In this document: piece after piece, positions 3,177 through 20,642 of the stretch
Position numbering within the stretch: the stretch's first letter is position 1
Layout: each line of letters begins with the position of its first letter
Source: a virus
Virus record (IMG/VR): IMGVR_UViG_3300020084_000127
Coordinates: 1 to 21,744 of that record
Strand: one strand, 5' to 3'
DNA: 21,744 nt
The notes under the pieces: generated by a model
The model's database searches: none
The model's input: the letters and a program-made list of their open reading frames with translations, nothing else
What the model was told of the DNA's origin: nothing
Position numbers and translations under genes: made by a program

Positions 3177-3827
3177 TCAAACTATCCTAACTAATTTGTG
3201 TGTACGATGAGCATCTACTGCACTCTCTGGCAAAAGATCTACGCCAAGAGTGACTCTTGGTACATGTAACTCATGCAATGTAGTCCAATGAATGATATAT
3301 TCAGGGAACATTGTAATTGTACCAGGTACATTGTCAAAAGCAACACTATTTAGTCCATATGGATTTTGGTACACAGTTTGTGTATTGTGTGCTTGTAAAG
3401 TTATATTTGCAGACAAAAAACTATACTCATCACACGCATGTTGATGGGGTTTTATTGCTTGTCTAGATCTCAATACATTTGCCCACATTTGAGCATAAAC
3501 GGGTTCTTCAAAATCAGGAGCCATCAAGTTGACTCCATGTGCTAACTTATCCTTGATTGTTTGACATACTGGATGCTCCCACTGAAGCATATTATATGCT
3601 TGAAACTTTGCAGTGATAGAATTTGGACCAAGACCAGTCCCTCCATCATTTTTGTACTCAGGATTCTTACTAATAATATCCATTTCTTGTTCAATAATAT
3701 GAGTAGTAAGACTCTTACATTCTTCAGGTGTAAGAATTACTTCATTCCATACTTTGACACAATATGAAACTGCAAATGGAGTTTTTGGATCATTCTCTTG
3801 GTAAAAAAGTTTAGTGATTTGATTCAT
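3177..3827 (-). CDS. 2OG-Fe(II) oxygenase-like protein, 216 aa
   Basis: Probable iron/2-oxoglutarate-dependent oxygenase-fold protein. Visible iron-site candidates: KPHQHACDEYSF (H128, H130, D133), a distal His in MFPEYIIHWTT (H180), and R191 in VPRVTLGVDLLP, the usual position of the 2-oxoglutarate-binding Arg. The pattern resembles the putative 2OG-Fe(II) oxygenase family found in cyanophages (2OG-FeII_Oxy_5 type) but is more diverged than its two upstream relatives. I chose the ATG at 3827 (MNQITKLFYQ) over a TTG 18 bases upstream. It overlaps the preceding gene by 17 bases and is the last of four oxygenase-like genes. Substrate unknown. Confidence 0.72.
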   Translation of the reverse strand: MNQITKLFYQENDPKTPFAVSYCVKVWNEVILTPEECKSLTTHIIEQEMDIISKNPEYKNDGGTGLGPNSITAKFQAYNMLQWEHPVCQTIKDKLAHGVNLMAPDFEEPVYAQMWANVLRSRQAIKPHQHACDEYSFLSANITLQAHNTQTVYQNPYGLNSVAFDNVPGTITMFPEYIIHWTTLHELHVPRVTLGVDLLPESAVDAHRTHKLVRIV

Positions 3828-4527
3828 GACGTATCCCCATTCCAACTAATGAGTATCTATGTTCATCTAAAAATGTTTCTTCTGGTATATATGGAGAATG
3901 GAAATATCCTCCATCATAAATCAAACAACTGTTATATTCAATAGGAGCAATGGTGTCAAGTTGCCAGTTTTCATCACCACGAAAACATTCCCACTTTGTT
4001 ACTTTATAATCGGTCTCGGGGAAAATCTCCTCGTATTCTTCTTTATTGAGTTCAGTAACATATTTTTTATCACGCCAGCGCCAGAATGCAGTCCCCCCAA
4101 TACCTTGACACATCCACAGATTGAATACAAAGTTGATAACATTTAGATTGCCTTCAGGATCTGTAAATACATCAGCATGTGGCAAATGTGATCTATCAAC
4201 CATTGGCATATCACCTGTAAATATGTTATTGAATATTCGCACAGGCATGAAATCAACATCTTGACGAATACGTTCCATAATAGTTGCTGCTGCCCAAGGT
4301 GGGATTTCTTGACGCCAACCAGGAGCAAATCCACCAGTCTTTCTCCACTGAGAAGAAATAACTGGAAATTGTTCCATAATCTGAACATACAGATCTGGAT
4401 TCAATAAAAAATTTTGATACATTTTGAATGAGTTCATTCCATCAATGTTCACCTCAACCAGTTTTGTTTCTGGATTGATTTGAACTGCTTTCAGAAATTT
4501 CTCTTCATCAATCCAATTTAGTGTCAT
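3811..4527 (-). CDS. DUF6445-like / 2OG-Fe(II) oxygenase-fold protein, 238 aa
   Basis: The sequence shows a clear HxD...H...R arrangement: H117-A-D119 in SHLPHADVF, H210 in DGGYFHSPY and R224 in EHRYSLVG, as in 2-oxoglutarate/Fe(II) dioxygenases. The surrounding text (FNNIFTGDMPMVDRSHLPH, VFNLWMCQGIGGTAFWRW) resembles the DUF6445 family, which from memory occurs near flavin-dependent halogenases in bacteria such as Caulobacterales; here a halogenase lies about 15 kb away on the same strand. The ATG at 4527 overlaps the preceding gene by 20 bases. The active fold is fairly secure; substrate and DUF assignment are inference. Confidence 0.75.
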   Translation of the reverse strand: MTLNWIDEEKFLKAVQINPETKLVEVNIDGMNSFKMYQNFLLNPDLYVQIMEQFPVISSQWRKTGGFAPGWRQEIPPWAAATIMERIRQDVDFMPVRIFNNIFTGDMPMVDRSHLPHADVFTDPEGNLNVINFVFNLWMCQGIGGTAFWRWRDKKYVTELNKEEYEEIFPETDYKVTKWECFRGDENWQLDTIAPIEYNSCLIYDGGYFHSPYIPEETFLDEHRYSLVGMGIRHESNH

Positions 4528-5188
4528 ATCTTGTTACCTTGAATGTGTAAGATCCTCGTGTTTCAAATACTTCTGGCAAAACATTGAAAGAAATACTAAT
4601 TCTAGAGTCTGCATAGTTTTCGTCATAACCATGCACCAAATTAGATTGCCATAACAATAAATCCCCTTCGCCATGATCTATAATTGCACCACCAGAATTA
4701 TATTTTGTTTGTTTACATTCTGCTAGTTCAATATATGGTTTACATGATGCTCCAGGGATCATGTTTCCATTTTGGAATGACAAATGTGGGTGTTTACCAC
4801 GAATAAAATTAGCAAAATATGTACCAGAAATATACGAATTGCTGTGAACATGTGCAAACTGATGTCCACCAGTATCACACTTATTCAACCAACAATCTGT
4901 AATGATTACGTTCTCACATTTGTAACCAAGTACATCATTGATAAAATCAAGAGAGCATTGTTTGATCCACTCTTCAAATTTATCAAATAATCCTGTAGAA
5001 AGGAGATTTTGATTGTACCTGTTGAAATAATGTGTGAGTTGATCTGATTCACCATTTATTTTTACATACTGTTGATCACCATATTCGTCTAGAACATCAA
5101 AACATTTTTGCTTGACATCATCAATCCCATTTTGAGGCATTTTATATTTCCCAATTGATATGGGAAATATTTCCATAATTTCTTTCAT
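4508..5188 (-). CDS. putative 2OG-Fe(II) oxygenase, 226 aa
   Basis: Belongs with the putative 2OG-Fe(II) oxygenase family common in cyanophages. Key residues: HVHSNSYISGTYF (H113, H115, N117), a distal His in LLLWQSNLVHGY (H186) and R196 in DSRISISFNVLPE, the Arg expected to hold 2-oxoglutarate. The order H-x-H-S-N / SG-x-Y / H / R-x-S-x-S-F-N matches its neighbour at 5185-5859, so the two look like paralogues. I chose the ATG at 5188, overlapping the upstream stop as ATGA, rather than a TTG two codons earlier. A perfect 10-bp inverted repeat lies in codons 7-15. Substrate unknown; hydroxylation of a protein or small molecule is the default guess. Confidence 0.82.
   Translation of the reverse strand: MKEIMEIFPISIGKYKMPQNGIDDVKQKCFDVLDEYGDQQYVKINGESDQLTHYFNRYNQNLLSTGLFDKFEEWIKQCSLDFINDVLGYKCENVIITDCWLNKCDTGGHQFAHVHSNSYISGTYFANFIRGKHPHLSFQNGNMIPGASCKPYIELAECKQTKYNSGGAIIDHGEGDLLLWQSNLVHGYDENYADSRISISFNVLPEVFETRGSYTFKVTRYDTKLD
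5144..5170. repeat. perfect 10-bp inverted repeat inside the oxygenase start
   Basis: ATATTTCCCA (5144-5153) and its reverse complement TGGGAAATAT (5161-5170), separated by a 7-base loop, lie in codons 7-15 of the 226-aa oxygenase gene. It could form an RNA hairpin about 18 bases after the start codon; no T-tract follows, so it is not a terminator. Confidence 0.6.
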
Positions 5189-5859
5189 GAGCAATTCAAC
5201 CGATTGAGTGCATAATTATAACCAAGGTCACCTCTCATCCAAATATTGAATGATACACTAAACCTTGGTTCTGTACCATACCTATTAGGTATTGTACCAT
5301 GTTCCAACCAGGATGGGAATAGTAGTAGCAAACCTTTTTTTGGACGTATAATAATTTCGCCCATGTTGATATCATTTAGTCCTCTAACTTGAGGCATAAT
5401 AGTATATCTTTTTACTGGATCTATAAATTTGATGGCACCGCCGTTAGTAGCATAATCAATCTCTACATCCTCAGGATACCAAACTCCAGAAAAAAATGAA
5501 TTACTATGGCAATGAGATTGAATTGATGCATTCTTACCTAATGAATTTGCCCACATTGATGTGATATATGGTTTGATAGACGTGTAACCATACTCTGACC
5601 AGGCACTTTGTACTGCTGTTATAACTTTGATACAAAAATTGTGATAGATGGGTTCTTTGTCAAGGGTATCTTCAGTCTGATACGATTCTTGATCAAATGC
5701 TTTTTCTATTTCTCTTGTTGCCCACCTAGAGTTTAGATCTCTGATAATATCATTTTGCTCATCAACGAAACACGGAAATTCAAATAAACACGTTGGAAAC
5801 ACCTTATGCACAGTTGGTTCCATTGGAGTGTTGGGACCATCATAATAAAAATAACTCAT
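5185..5859 (-). CDS. putative 2OG-Fe(II) oxygenase, 224 aa
   Basis: Residues ~113-127 read SIQSHCHSNSFFSGVWY, with iron-ligand candidates H116/H118 and N120; the distal His is H187 in LLLFPSWLEHGTIP and the 2-oxoglutarate Arg is R199 in PRFSVSFNIW. This is the typical pattern of the putative 2OG-Fe(II) oxygenase family (2OG-FeII_Oxy_5 type). The N-terminal ~100 residues (KVFPTCLFEFPCF...) are the usual helical lead-in, so the gene is full length. ATG at 5859 overlaps the preceding stop (ATGA). First of four consecutive oxygenase-like genes that follow the fibre cassette and two unknown proteins. Substrate cannot be read from the sequence. Confidence 0.85.
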   Translation of the reverse strand: MSYFYYDGPNTPMEPTVHKVFPTCLFEFPCFVDEQNDIIRDLNSRWATREIEKAFDQESYQTEDTLDKEPIYHNFCIKVITAVQSAWSEYGYTSIKPYITSMWANSLGKNASIQSHCHSNSFFSGVWYPEDVEIDYATNGGAIKFIDPVKRYTIMPQVRGLNDINMGEIIIRPKKGLLLLFPSWLEHGTIPNRYGTEPRFSVSFNIWMRGDLGYNYALNRLNCS

Positions 5860-18008: not shown

Positions 18009-19328
18009 TTAGAATCCAGCGTAAAAGAATTGTTGTTGTCTTGTTCTACCTGTTAGTGTTGCTGCACCAATACCACCGCCAAATTGAACGTCATCTAGTG
18101 TTACGTTTTCTGTAGATAGTAGAGTTGCATCCGCATTAGGAAACTTGATTGTTCTCAGTTCTGTAATGTTAGTGAGATCAAAAACAACTGAGGAAGCGCC
18201 ACCAAATGCCGACTTGATTACAGGATTTAGCAAAGTCTTATTTCTAAGATCTTGTGCTGCTCTTTCAGTAACAAATATATTGTTACCGCCTGCATTATTT
18301 AGCACAGAATTATTTGGGAACTGATAAGATTCGTTTGTATTTTCAGTAATATTATCAAGACTAAAATTGACTTTTCTAGTAATACTTGTTGCAGATGCAA
18401 ATACTGGACTTGCATAAACTTTGTTAGTTACAGTCTGTGTAGCGTCGGTTCCCAATAGTGTCAAACTGATATCAGGAACTGTAATTGTTCTATTCGCTGT
18501 AATTCCAGTTGTATTGAACTGAGCAAAAAATGTAGAGTCAAACGTTTGCTTTGTCTTCAACTGCACAAAAGTTTTACCAAGACATGTCTGAGTTGTTTTG
18601 GTATCAAGAAGTGTAGAGTGATTGGCATTTGGTTCAGTAGTTGTAGTAGTTGCACCTGCATCAGGAAGAAAATACGATCTACGAGCTGCCTCTGTTTCAG
18701 TCCAATCAATCTGAAAGATTGCTTCCTCAGTTCCATCAACAATTACAAAGTCATCTTCATCAACAAGAATTGTTTTATTTCTGAGTGTTTGAATAGTAGT
18801 ATCACCGACTAGAACTGTTCCGTTACCAGTGGTAATTGGTGGTAGGTTGAAGATTCTTGTAGATGTACCACTACCAATACCAGAAATTTCAAATCTTGCT
18901 TTAGAACCTAGGGAGTCTTCAAGAATAAATGCAGTATCATCAATACGAAACTGTCCTGTAACTCTTACAGAACCAGAACCTTTAGGTGCAAGAACCAAAT
19001 CTGAGTTATTGACTAAATTATCAAGAGCAGTCAAATATTGAGATGTACTACCATCACCATTTGGAAGTCTTGTAAAATAAACACCACCATTTCCCCAGGA
19101 AAGACCAAGTTCATTATAACCATTTTGATACATTCCAGTATCACGGTCAAGGTCAAATGATAGTCCTGGAGCAGTTTTTGTACCAGCAGTAAGTCCTTTG
19201 AAAAGTTGATTTACTTTTGCTCGTCTATTTGGATTTAGCGGATCAGAAATCACTACTGGGAGAAACGCTTCTCCCGATAGACTTGCTGTTGCTACCTCAG
19301 ATAATTGAGAAATCTTTTTAGTTCCCAC
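18009..19328 (-). CDS. tail-fibre-like structural protein with repeated LxNKT motifs, 439 aa
   Basis: Starts at a GTG (19328): the preceding sequence has AGGA five bases upstream and no ATG is near, and the N-terminus (M)GTKKISQLSEVATASLSGE is a common start of phage fibre and neck proteins. The middle contains at least three related segments: IQTLRNKTILVDEDDF, TQTVTNKVYASPVF and AQDLRNKTLLNPVI, the 'tLtNKTLtsP' repeat of trimeric beta-structured fibres. Ends in RTRQQQFFYAGF. A late promoter element precedes it. Likely a trimeric fibre, tail-collar or baseplate protein, first gene of the late structural group. Confidence 0.8.
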   Translation of the reverse strand: MGTKKISQLSEVATASLSGEAFLPVVISDPLNPNRRAKVNQLFKGLTAGTKTAPGLSFDLDRDTGMYQNGYNELGLSWGNGGVYFTRLPNGDGSTSQYLTALDNLVNNSDLVLAPKGSGSVRVTGQFRIDDTAFILEDSLGSKARFEISGIGSGTSTRIFNLPPITTGNGTVLVGDTTIQTLRNKTILVDEDDFVIVDGTEEAIFQIDWTETEAARRSYFLPDAGATTTTTEPNANHSTLLDTKTTQTCLGKTFVQLKTKQTFDSTFFAQFNTTGITANRTITVPDISLTLLGTDATQTVTNKVYASPVFASATSITRKVNFSLDNITENTNESYQFPNNSVLNNAGGNNIFVTERAAQDLRNKTLLNPVIKSAFGGASSVVFDLTNITELRTIKFPNADATLLSTENVTLDDVQFGGGIGAATLTGRTRQQQFFYAGF

Positions 19329-19355: not shown

Positions 19356-19363
19356 TATTTATA
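19356..19363 (-). promoter_or_regulatory. T4-type late promoter (TATAAATA)
   Basis: Perfect match to the T4 late promoter element on the minus strand, in the 37-base gap between the halogenase and the 439-aa gene, leaving about 20 bases of leader with a Shine-Dalgarno sequence before GTG 19328. Likely driven by the phage late sigma-factor analogue (gp55 family). Confidence 0.65.
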
Positions 19364-19365
19364 AT

Positions 19366-20442
19366 CTATGGGACATATAGGTTTTGCAATCCCTCAAACA
19401 TATTCATTACAGACTCAGAACTATGAAATCCATAGGTTATCATTTGTGTTCTGAGATTCATATCAATGATATTATCTAAATGAGGATCATCTACAGTCAA
19501 AGTTTTTGCATAATCCCAGAATGGTGTATCATACTTCGATCCAAACTGGTAATGGTACAAAATAAAATTCATGTTCTCTTTGATAGACCTCTGCATATCA
19601 AATATTGCAGTTTCTAATGGAAGACCGTCAAGCAAAACATCCATAGTTTTGAAAGTCCACTTCAAATAACCAGCAACTGAAGTTGCTTCCATTGGCTCAA
19701 TGAAAAAATATTTGTTACCGTTCAGGAATATTCTATTCTCTATCACTGGGTTTTTTGCACAATAATTCCTGAACGGGAATTTTTTGACTACCTTTTCAAT
19801 ACCAAACAAGTTTTTGAAATTTGCTTCTGCTTGTTCATCAGTAGTAATAGTATCATTATACAGGTATCCATATTGAATACGATTTTTTAGATGAATGACA
19901 AAACACCAACCGTCAGGAGTTGCTACAGTTCTTGTCCAAGGAACGAATTGAGGATTTGGCATGTTTGATAGAAGAACTTTATTCAGCGGGTTCTTCAACT
20001 CATCATAGTCAGTATAATCTTTTGGAAATCCAGTACAGTCATAAATGAAATCTGCATCAATATCATTATATGACGCAATATTTTTTTGTGTTACAGGAAA
20101 TACTCCCATATTACATATAGATTCTTGAAATGCTTGTGGATCAAAATGCATTCCAACTTGATTGAAGTTGAACGGATGAAACCAATCACCCTTTTTACCC
20201 CAATTTTCATACATAATTCCCATTTTGGGAGTAGCATGAAATGTATTATTTTGCCATGTCAAACTCCATCCAAAAGTATCAGCAAGAAAATCTGTTAGAC
20301 CAGGGAAAGATCCTGATCCTACTGGTTCAGTAGGAATTTCACTATCATAGTAAAGTTCTACCTCAGTTTTTGGTGATAATACTTTCCAATGCAGTGCGGT
20401 AATAACTCCTGCTAATCCTTTTCCAATGATACCTATTTTCAT
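19366..20442 (-). CDS. flavin-dependent halogenase, tryptophan-halogenase/VirX1 type
   Basis: Predicted FADH2-dependent halogenase: uses flavin hydroperoxide and halide to make HOX that is passed through a tunnel to a catalytic Lys. Visible: FAD-binding GKGLAG (GxGxxG) at 7-12; catalytic Lys candidate K73 in HATPKMGIMYENWG; a segment PDGWCFVIHL (177-185, WCFVIH) at the place of the family's WxWxIP motif, but degenerate; YGYLYND at 191-197; FIEPMEATSVAGY with E252 at the position of the catalytic Glu of PrnA (next residue Ala instead of the usual Ser). At 358 aa it is short for PrnA-type enzymes (about 530) and so is a compact type. VirX1 from cyanophage Syn10 is a known viral relative (broad substrate range, prefers iodide). 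ATG at 20442 overlaps the stop of the 67-aa gene (ATGA). No flavin reductase is seen in the window. Substrate cannot be read from the sequence. Confidence 0.85.
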   Translation of the reverse strand: MKIGIIGKGLAGVITALHWKVLSPKTEVELYYDSEIPTEPVGSGSFPGLTDFLADTFGWSLTWQNNTFHATPKMGIMYENWGKKGDWFHPFNFNQVGMHFDPQAFQESICNMGVFPVTQKNIASYNDIDADFIYDCTGFPKDYTDYDELKNPLNKVLLSNMPNPQFVPWTRTVATPDGWCFVIHLKNRIQYGYLYNDTITTDEQAEANFKNLFGIEKVVKKFPFRNYCAKNPVIENRIFLNGNKYFFIEPMEATSVAGYLKWTFKTMDVLLDGLPLETAIFDMQRSIKENMNFILYHYQFGSKYDTPFWDYAKTLTVDDPHLDNIIDMNLRTQMITYGFHSSESVMNMFEGLQNLYVP

Positions 20443-20642
20443 TGAGGTTTTTGCATCTCGTTCATATCATCAAGTCTATCTAGAATACCATCAAAAGATT
20501 TCATTTGCTCTATTCGACAAAGCAATTCAGAAATACTATTGCATACAATTGGACGTTCTCCACGAGCAGCATATGCTAGAGCATTACGAAGCATCACAGA
20601 TGCTTCATCTAGTGATTCGATAACAGTTTGTGAAAGTGCCAT
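20439..20642 (-). CDS. small hypothetical protein, 67 aa
   Basis: ATG at 20642 overlaps the preceding stop as TAATG, and its own stop overlaps the halogenase start as ATGA, so it is coupled on both sides. The protein (MALSQTVIESLDEASVMLRN ...) is helical, with AYAARGERPIVCNSISE in the middle and a charged C-terminus (GILDRLDDMNEMQ). No motif recognised. Its position directly before the halogenase makes it a candidate partner or regulator, but nothing in the sequence shows that. Confidence 0.8.
   Translation of the reverse strand: MALSQTVIESLDEASVMLRNALAYAARGERPIVCNSISELLCRIEQMKSFDGILDRLDDMNEMQKPQ

Follow-up and report, generated by a model that had tools for sequence, protein, structure and literature searches.

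A compact flavin-dependent halogenase gene in a T4-like cyanophage contig: catalytic residues kept, tryptophan-binding segment missing

Introduction

Can a phage protein of 358 residues, against the 538 of PrnA, still be a working flavin-dependent halogenase, and if so, would it act on free tryptophan? The question is raised by an uninterrupted open reading frame of 358 codons plus a stop on the minus strand of a 21,744-base marine virus contig, which we analyzed over its whole length (the window); the plus strand of the same region is rich in stops. A preliminary description, which gave no strand, had read the product as a viral halogenase much shorter than PrnA-type enzymes, which it is, with both catalytic residues in place and a degenerate signature motif, i.e., one pointing to an altered substrate or a reduced block on monooxygenation. 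Genes of this type have been annotated since 2010, when cyanophage “prnA” genes of 1104 to 1593 bases were tabulated (PMC3037559), and a speculative role as pyrrolnitrin-type antibiotic enzymes has repeatedly been assigned to the cyanophage “tryptophan halogenases”. Our search of the open-access literature yielded neither a description of the compact clade as a group nor a compact relative with activity data, and the clade appears uncharacterized.

Genomic setting of the halogenase gene

The tail-fibre region of the contig shares 73-79% DNA identity with Synechococcus and Prochlorococcus myoviruses, and by its sequence the contig is that of a T4-like cyanomyovirus in which the halogenase gene adjoins virion structural genes (Table 1). 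The downstream genes, PHROG 692, 693 and 529, stand in an order identical to that in cyanophage S-ShM2, whereas upstream talC lies directly before the halogenase gene in S-ShM2 and PHROG 1179 and other small genes occupy that place in the window. A putative late promoter, TATAAATA, precedes the first of the virion genes, although this is a weak signal, with one match in the window against 1.3 expected by chance. Elsewhere on the minus strand of the window we observed a run of four genes (3177-5859), three for 2OG-Fe(II) oxygenases (PHROG 81) and one for a minor coat protein, and an HNH endonuclease-like gene (1285-1938).

Table 1. Positions in the window of the compact halogenase gene, its motifs and the adjoining features
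Feature	Position	Strand	Basis or remark
Compact flavin-dependent halogenase gene (predicted)	19366..20442	-	358 aa + stop; profile matches, fold
GxGxxG FAD-binding segment GKGLAG, residues 7-12	20407..20424	-	sequence; conservation in compact relatives
K73, PrnA K79 equivalent	20224..20226	-	alignment to PrnA, RebH and full-length phage enzymes
H89-P90-F91, Trp2 motif equivalent (PrnA H101-L102-F103)	20170..20178	-	alignment; motif definition PMC8269204
W179-C-F-V-I-H184, WxWxIP equivalent	19891..19908	-	alignments
F247-I-E-P-M-E252-A-T-S255, halide-tunnel motif; E252 = PrnA E346 equivalent	19678..19704	-	alignments
Virion structural protein, PHROG 692	18009..19328	-	downstream neighbour of halogenase; order same in S-ShM2
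Upstream neighbour, PHROG 1179 (function-less label)	20439..20642	-	overlaps halogenase start by 4 bases (ATGA)
TATAAATA, T4-late-promoter-like site	19356..19363	-	between halogenase stop and downstream virion gene

Family membership and predicted fold

The window protein passes the PF04820 Trp_halogenase profile with E=2.5e-32 and 112.7 bits (cut-off 21), and it matches PHROG 2928 at E=4e-94 and RebH at E=6.6e-15. A profile built from 68 compact relatives reaches solved halogenases with E down to 9e-32, and an NCBIfam search returned a match to CmlS alone, which was sub-threshold. The AlphaFold2 model (pLDDT 94.1, pTM 0.92) recovers tryptophan-halogenase-type enzymes in all 50 of the PDB matches listed, rather than the non-halogenating monooxygenases that would have spoken against the preliminary description, and the highest TM among these matches is that of MibH (0.85), with Xcc4156 at 0.83. 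When the model was searched against BFVD, the two best matches, including one named halogenase, were followed by giant-virus monooxygenases with TM of about 0.5-0.6. Family, profile and fold comparisons thus agree with the description of the protein as a viral flavin halogenase carrying both catalytic residues, i.e., one that belongs to the flavin-dependent halogenase family by descent, as judged from sequence and model.

Catalytic and cofactor residues

Our alignments bear out the cofactor and catalytic residues that had been proposed, in that GKGLAG is read directly in the sequence as G7-K-G9-L-A-G12, while K73 and E252 align with K79 and E346 of PrnA, where the K79A variant is inactive and the E346Q variant about 100-fold slower (PMC5727139). 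All conservation counts given here refer to 111 distinct compact relatives. G7, G9 and K73 are invariant among them, G12 is present in 110, and E252 is present in 108, the other three having Q. The HxF stack of the Trp2 motif is also present in the window protein (H89-P-F91), with H89 conserved in 104/111 and F91 in 107/111. On the basis of alignment and fold, K73 and E252 would face each other in the geometry seen in halogenases.

The FX[DE]PX[EFL] motif of flavin-dependent halogenases (PMC8407142) is matched by F-I-E-P-M-E at residues 247-252. In the Fx.Px.Sx.G tunnel motif, S is replaced by A253 and G by S255 at the aligned columns, although the published notation leaves spacing free and a looser spacing would match; E252, A253 and S255 align with PrnA E346, S347 and G349, and the full-length phage enzymes yield the identical pairing. 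The compact clade has the signature NGNRxFFxEP where full-length enzymes have GLSxGFxEP. Two further positions are altered clade-wide, with the equivalent of PrnA E49 being Q (77) or S (27), i.e., in 104/111, and that of G349 being S or A in 110/111, a state also seen in some full-length phage enzymes. Since these two positions are near the flavin and the halide, halide use is not assured.

The WxWxIP-equivalent motif is a conserved variant

The motif equivalent to WxWxIP does read WCFVIH, as had been noted, with W179, F181 and H184 aligned with PrnA W272, W274 and P277, and so departs from the WxWxIP pattern. The consensus of the compact clade is WxFxIP, with W179 present in 111/111, F181 in 110/111 and P184 in 103/111. 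Phenylalanine at position 181 is found in compact members, including distant cellular ones, and tryptophan in full-length members and in the copy of Campylobacter phage CP21, which sits on the full-length side of our tree. H184 occurs in 8/111 relatives, all in the one clade formed by the S-ShM2/window lineage, a distribution showing that the P-to-H change has a single origin and is fixed there. The nearest known relative, the annotated “tryptophan halogenase” of Synechococcus phage S-ShM2 and cyanophage S-RIM14 (T4-LIKE GC 212), shares this WxFxIH motif, has 66.5% identity over its full length and is of equal size, and its gene likewise has virion genes downstream.

Estimates of dN/dS range from 0.027 to 0.134, with dS near saturation, and indicate strong purifying selection. 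Since W-to-F is a conserved state of the whole clade and purifying selection acts on the one lineage in which P-to-H has become fixed, neither the term “degenerate” nor the proposed reduction of monooxygenase-blocking function is supported as worded; judged from these alignments, the window motif is not decaying but is a local form of the clade-wide WxFxIP. WxWxIP has been proposed to block monooxygenation, but it is absent from some accepted halogenases (PMC8407142) and is therefore not strictly required.

Missing segments and the substrate

In the profile alignment, K73, HPF and E252 coincide with the corresponding residues of the full-length enzymes, about 50 residues are gone between HPF and the next H99, loops are shorter, and the C-terminus ends before Trp4, so that nothing aligns to that region (PrnA 443-461). 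The absence of these two segments accounts for the shortness of the protein and suggests a K73/E252 site far more open to its surroundings than that of PrnA. In known enzymes Trp4 is in contact with tryptophan, which is not bound by halogenases that lack this segment (PMC8269204). The altered substrate that had been put forward is favoured more by the loss of Trp4 and of segments next to it than by the motif change. The window protein is most likely a catalytically active halogenase core whose exposed site would not act on free tryptophan.

The tryptophan 7-halogenases PrnA and RebH share with the window protein GxGxxG, the catalytic Lys and Glu, the HxF substrate stack and the flavin core, but they are of about 530 aa, possess the absent segment together with Trp4, and differ from the compact clade at E49, W274 and G349. 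VirX1 of cyanophage Syn10 (PDB 6QGM), for which an open active site has been reported (PMC8407142), had been cited as a known relative; it is a phage flavin-dependent halogenase of the same core family with Lys and Glu equivalents, but it is a distant one, being 531 aa long with intact GWVWNIP and EPLESTG, matching the window protein in the PDB at E=3.5e-11, and having its nearest relative in our set (S-RIM44b) among the full-length enzymes. Since VirX1 is distant, full length and intact at GWVWNIP, its iodide preference is not transferable to the window protein. MibH (5UAO), the lanthipeptide tryptophan 5-halogenase with the highest TM among the PDB matches listed (0.85, rmsd 3.6), is a 541-aa enzyme of lanthipeptide biosynthesis that acts on a peptide, and its small lead in TM is no evidence of substrate.

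Distribution of the compact clade in phages

At least 424 stretches of viral contigs, by a single-signature count, encode relatives, and the short form is shared by hundreds of contigs of ocean viruses. In our tree the compact clade, with the window protein in it, is split from the full-length phage enzymes with 100/99 support. One virus record of 199 kb has a compact copy beside three full-length ones, another has one of each, and S-ShM2 carries only the compact copy. The presence of compact and three full-length copies in one phage genome argues for a separate role of the compact enzyme.

The neighbours of the compact gene vary across lineages (PHROG 692, psbA, tail tube, major head protein, NAD synthetase and 2OG oxygenases), with many different locations, no fixed partner gene in our survey and no flavin reductase among the annotated neighbour clusters; with such varied surroundings it behaves like a movable auxiliary gene. 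Genes for 2OG oxygenases have a density of 0.12 per kb near the compact halogenase, about twice that in S-CREM1, a rough background counted by another method, and such genes are common in these phages generally. In four contigs (L032, L034, L113 and L109), 2OG oxygenase genes lie immediately upstream of a full-length halogenase gene, followed by psbA and then by the compact halogenase gene. One other contig contains a tandem pair of compact halogenase genes with overlapping ends, encoding 362 and 364 aa (L073:5001-7180).

Proposed function and alternatives

We favour, at a probability of roughly 60%, the reading that the product is a functional FADH2-dependent halogenase pared down to its flavin/halide core, which would serve as an auxiliary in infection on a substrate other than free tryptophan. 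This reading draws on the observed homology, fold, catalytic-residue conservation, loss of Trp4, purifying selection and coexistence of compact and full-length copies, and from these we infer catalysis, the halide, an exposed pocket, the substrate and the timing. Externally supplied reduced FAD would, as elsewhere in the family, react with O2 and halide to give hypohalous acid, which would move via an internal tunnel to K73 and E252, where an electron-rich aromatic ring would be halogenated. The substrate would more likely be a bulkier or tethered aromatic than free tryptophan, and the enzyme's use in infection would be distinct from that of the full-length halogenases of some of the same phages. 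Against this reading count the clade-wide changes at the E49 and G349 equivalents, the annotated neighbour clusters, among which no flavin reductase appeared, and the cellular side group that has V or I in place of E252. More speculatively, and in our view with a rather low chance of being right, the compact clade may be a minimal, cap-less halogenase whose targets during phage infection are aromatic side chains on proteins or peptides.

It is unlikely, if worth weighing, that the clade has instead turned into flavin monooxygenases, i.e., hydroxylases whose altered halide site and WxWxIP motif (W to F and, here, P to H) expose the flavin hydroperoxide to the substrate. The W274-to-F and G349-to-S/A equivalents are indeed clade-wide, and WxWxIP is the proposed block on monooxygenation (PMC8407142), but a hydroxylase could dispense with both the halogenase-specific Lys, which is invariant, and the Glu, which is nearly so; in addition, the motif keeps its initial W179 in every relative, WxWxIP is missing altogether from some accepted halogenases, and the closest solved folds, among the matches listed, are all halogenases. 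We regard as distinctly improbable an enzyme that, instead of halogenating site-specifically, generates hypohalous acid or peroxide, for example by oxidizing bromide or iodide during infection; the missing segments would make for poor retention of hypohalous acid at an exposed K73 site, and phage halogenases have been proposed to release reactive species (PMC11337851), yet conservation extends to E252, H89 and F91, whose part in tryptophan halogenases is in substrate chemistry.

Halogenation of a virion or other phage protein has a similarly slim chance. Several lineages place the gene beside structural genes (PHROG 692, major head protein, tail tube) and 2OG-Fe(II) oxygenase genes, and the peptide halogenase MibH together with a presumably exposed pocket would fit such a target, but the gene is found in many places with differing neighbours, the structural gene in the window may have its own late-type promoter, 2OG genes are common in these phages, with the roughly twofold density taken against a background counted by another method, and the TM lead of MibH is small. 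A non-functional or decaying relic, as the shortened protein and altered motif might suggest, is very improbable and is contradicted by the conservation data, since the open reading frame is intact, dN/dS is below 0.14 and the catalytic residues are kept across a large clade, one found in hundreds of viral stretches.

A large group of cyanophage “tryptophan halogenases” lacks the tryptophan-binding segment, which makes the pyrrolnitrin-type antibiotic explanation unlikely for that group. An enzyme of 358 aa with the halogenase fold would also offer a small biocatalyst, possibly of broad scope, and would test what a minimal halogenase core needs.

Cellular homologues

Among the non-viral hits of our genome scan, which included Euryarchaeota MAGs, a contig named Nonlabens xiamenensis (L157:5001-6134) encodes a halogenase almost identical to the copy of cyanophage P-TIM40; this near-identity indicates that it is probably phage sequence in the assembly, and it was not counted as cellular. 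A cellular compact side group of Vampirovibrionales and others (L151, L153, L154, L155 and L156) has FFEPLV/I and the motif GWMFGVP, with V or I at the E252 position, and loss of the catalytic Glu is thus compatible with the compact fold. The chromosomal compact homologue of BD1-7 clade bacterium SB11_3 (L144), just outside the S-ShM2/window lineage, resembles the window protein in having 53% identity over its full length, 369 aa and FIEPMEATSV, but differs in having P at the H184 position and in sitting among metabolic genes.
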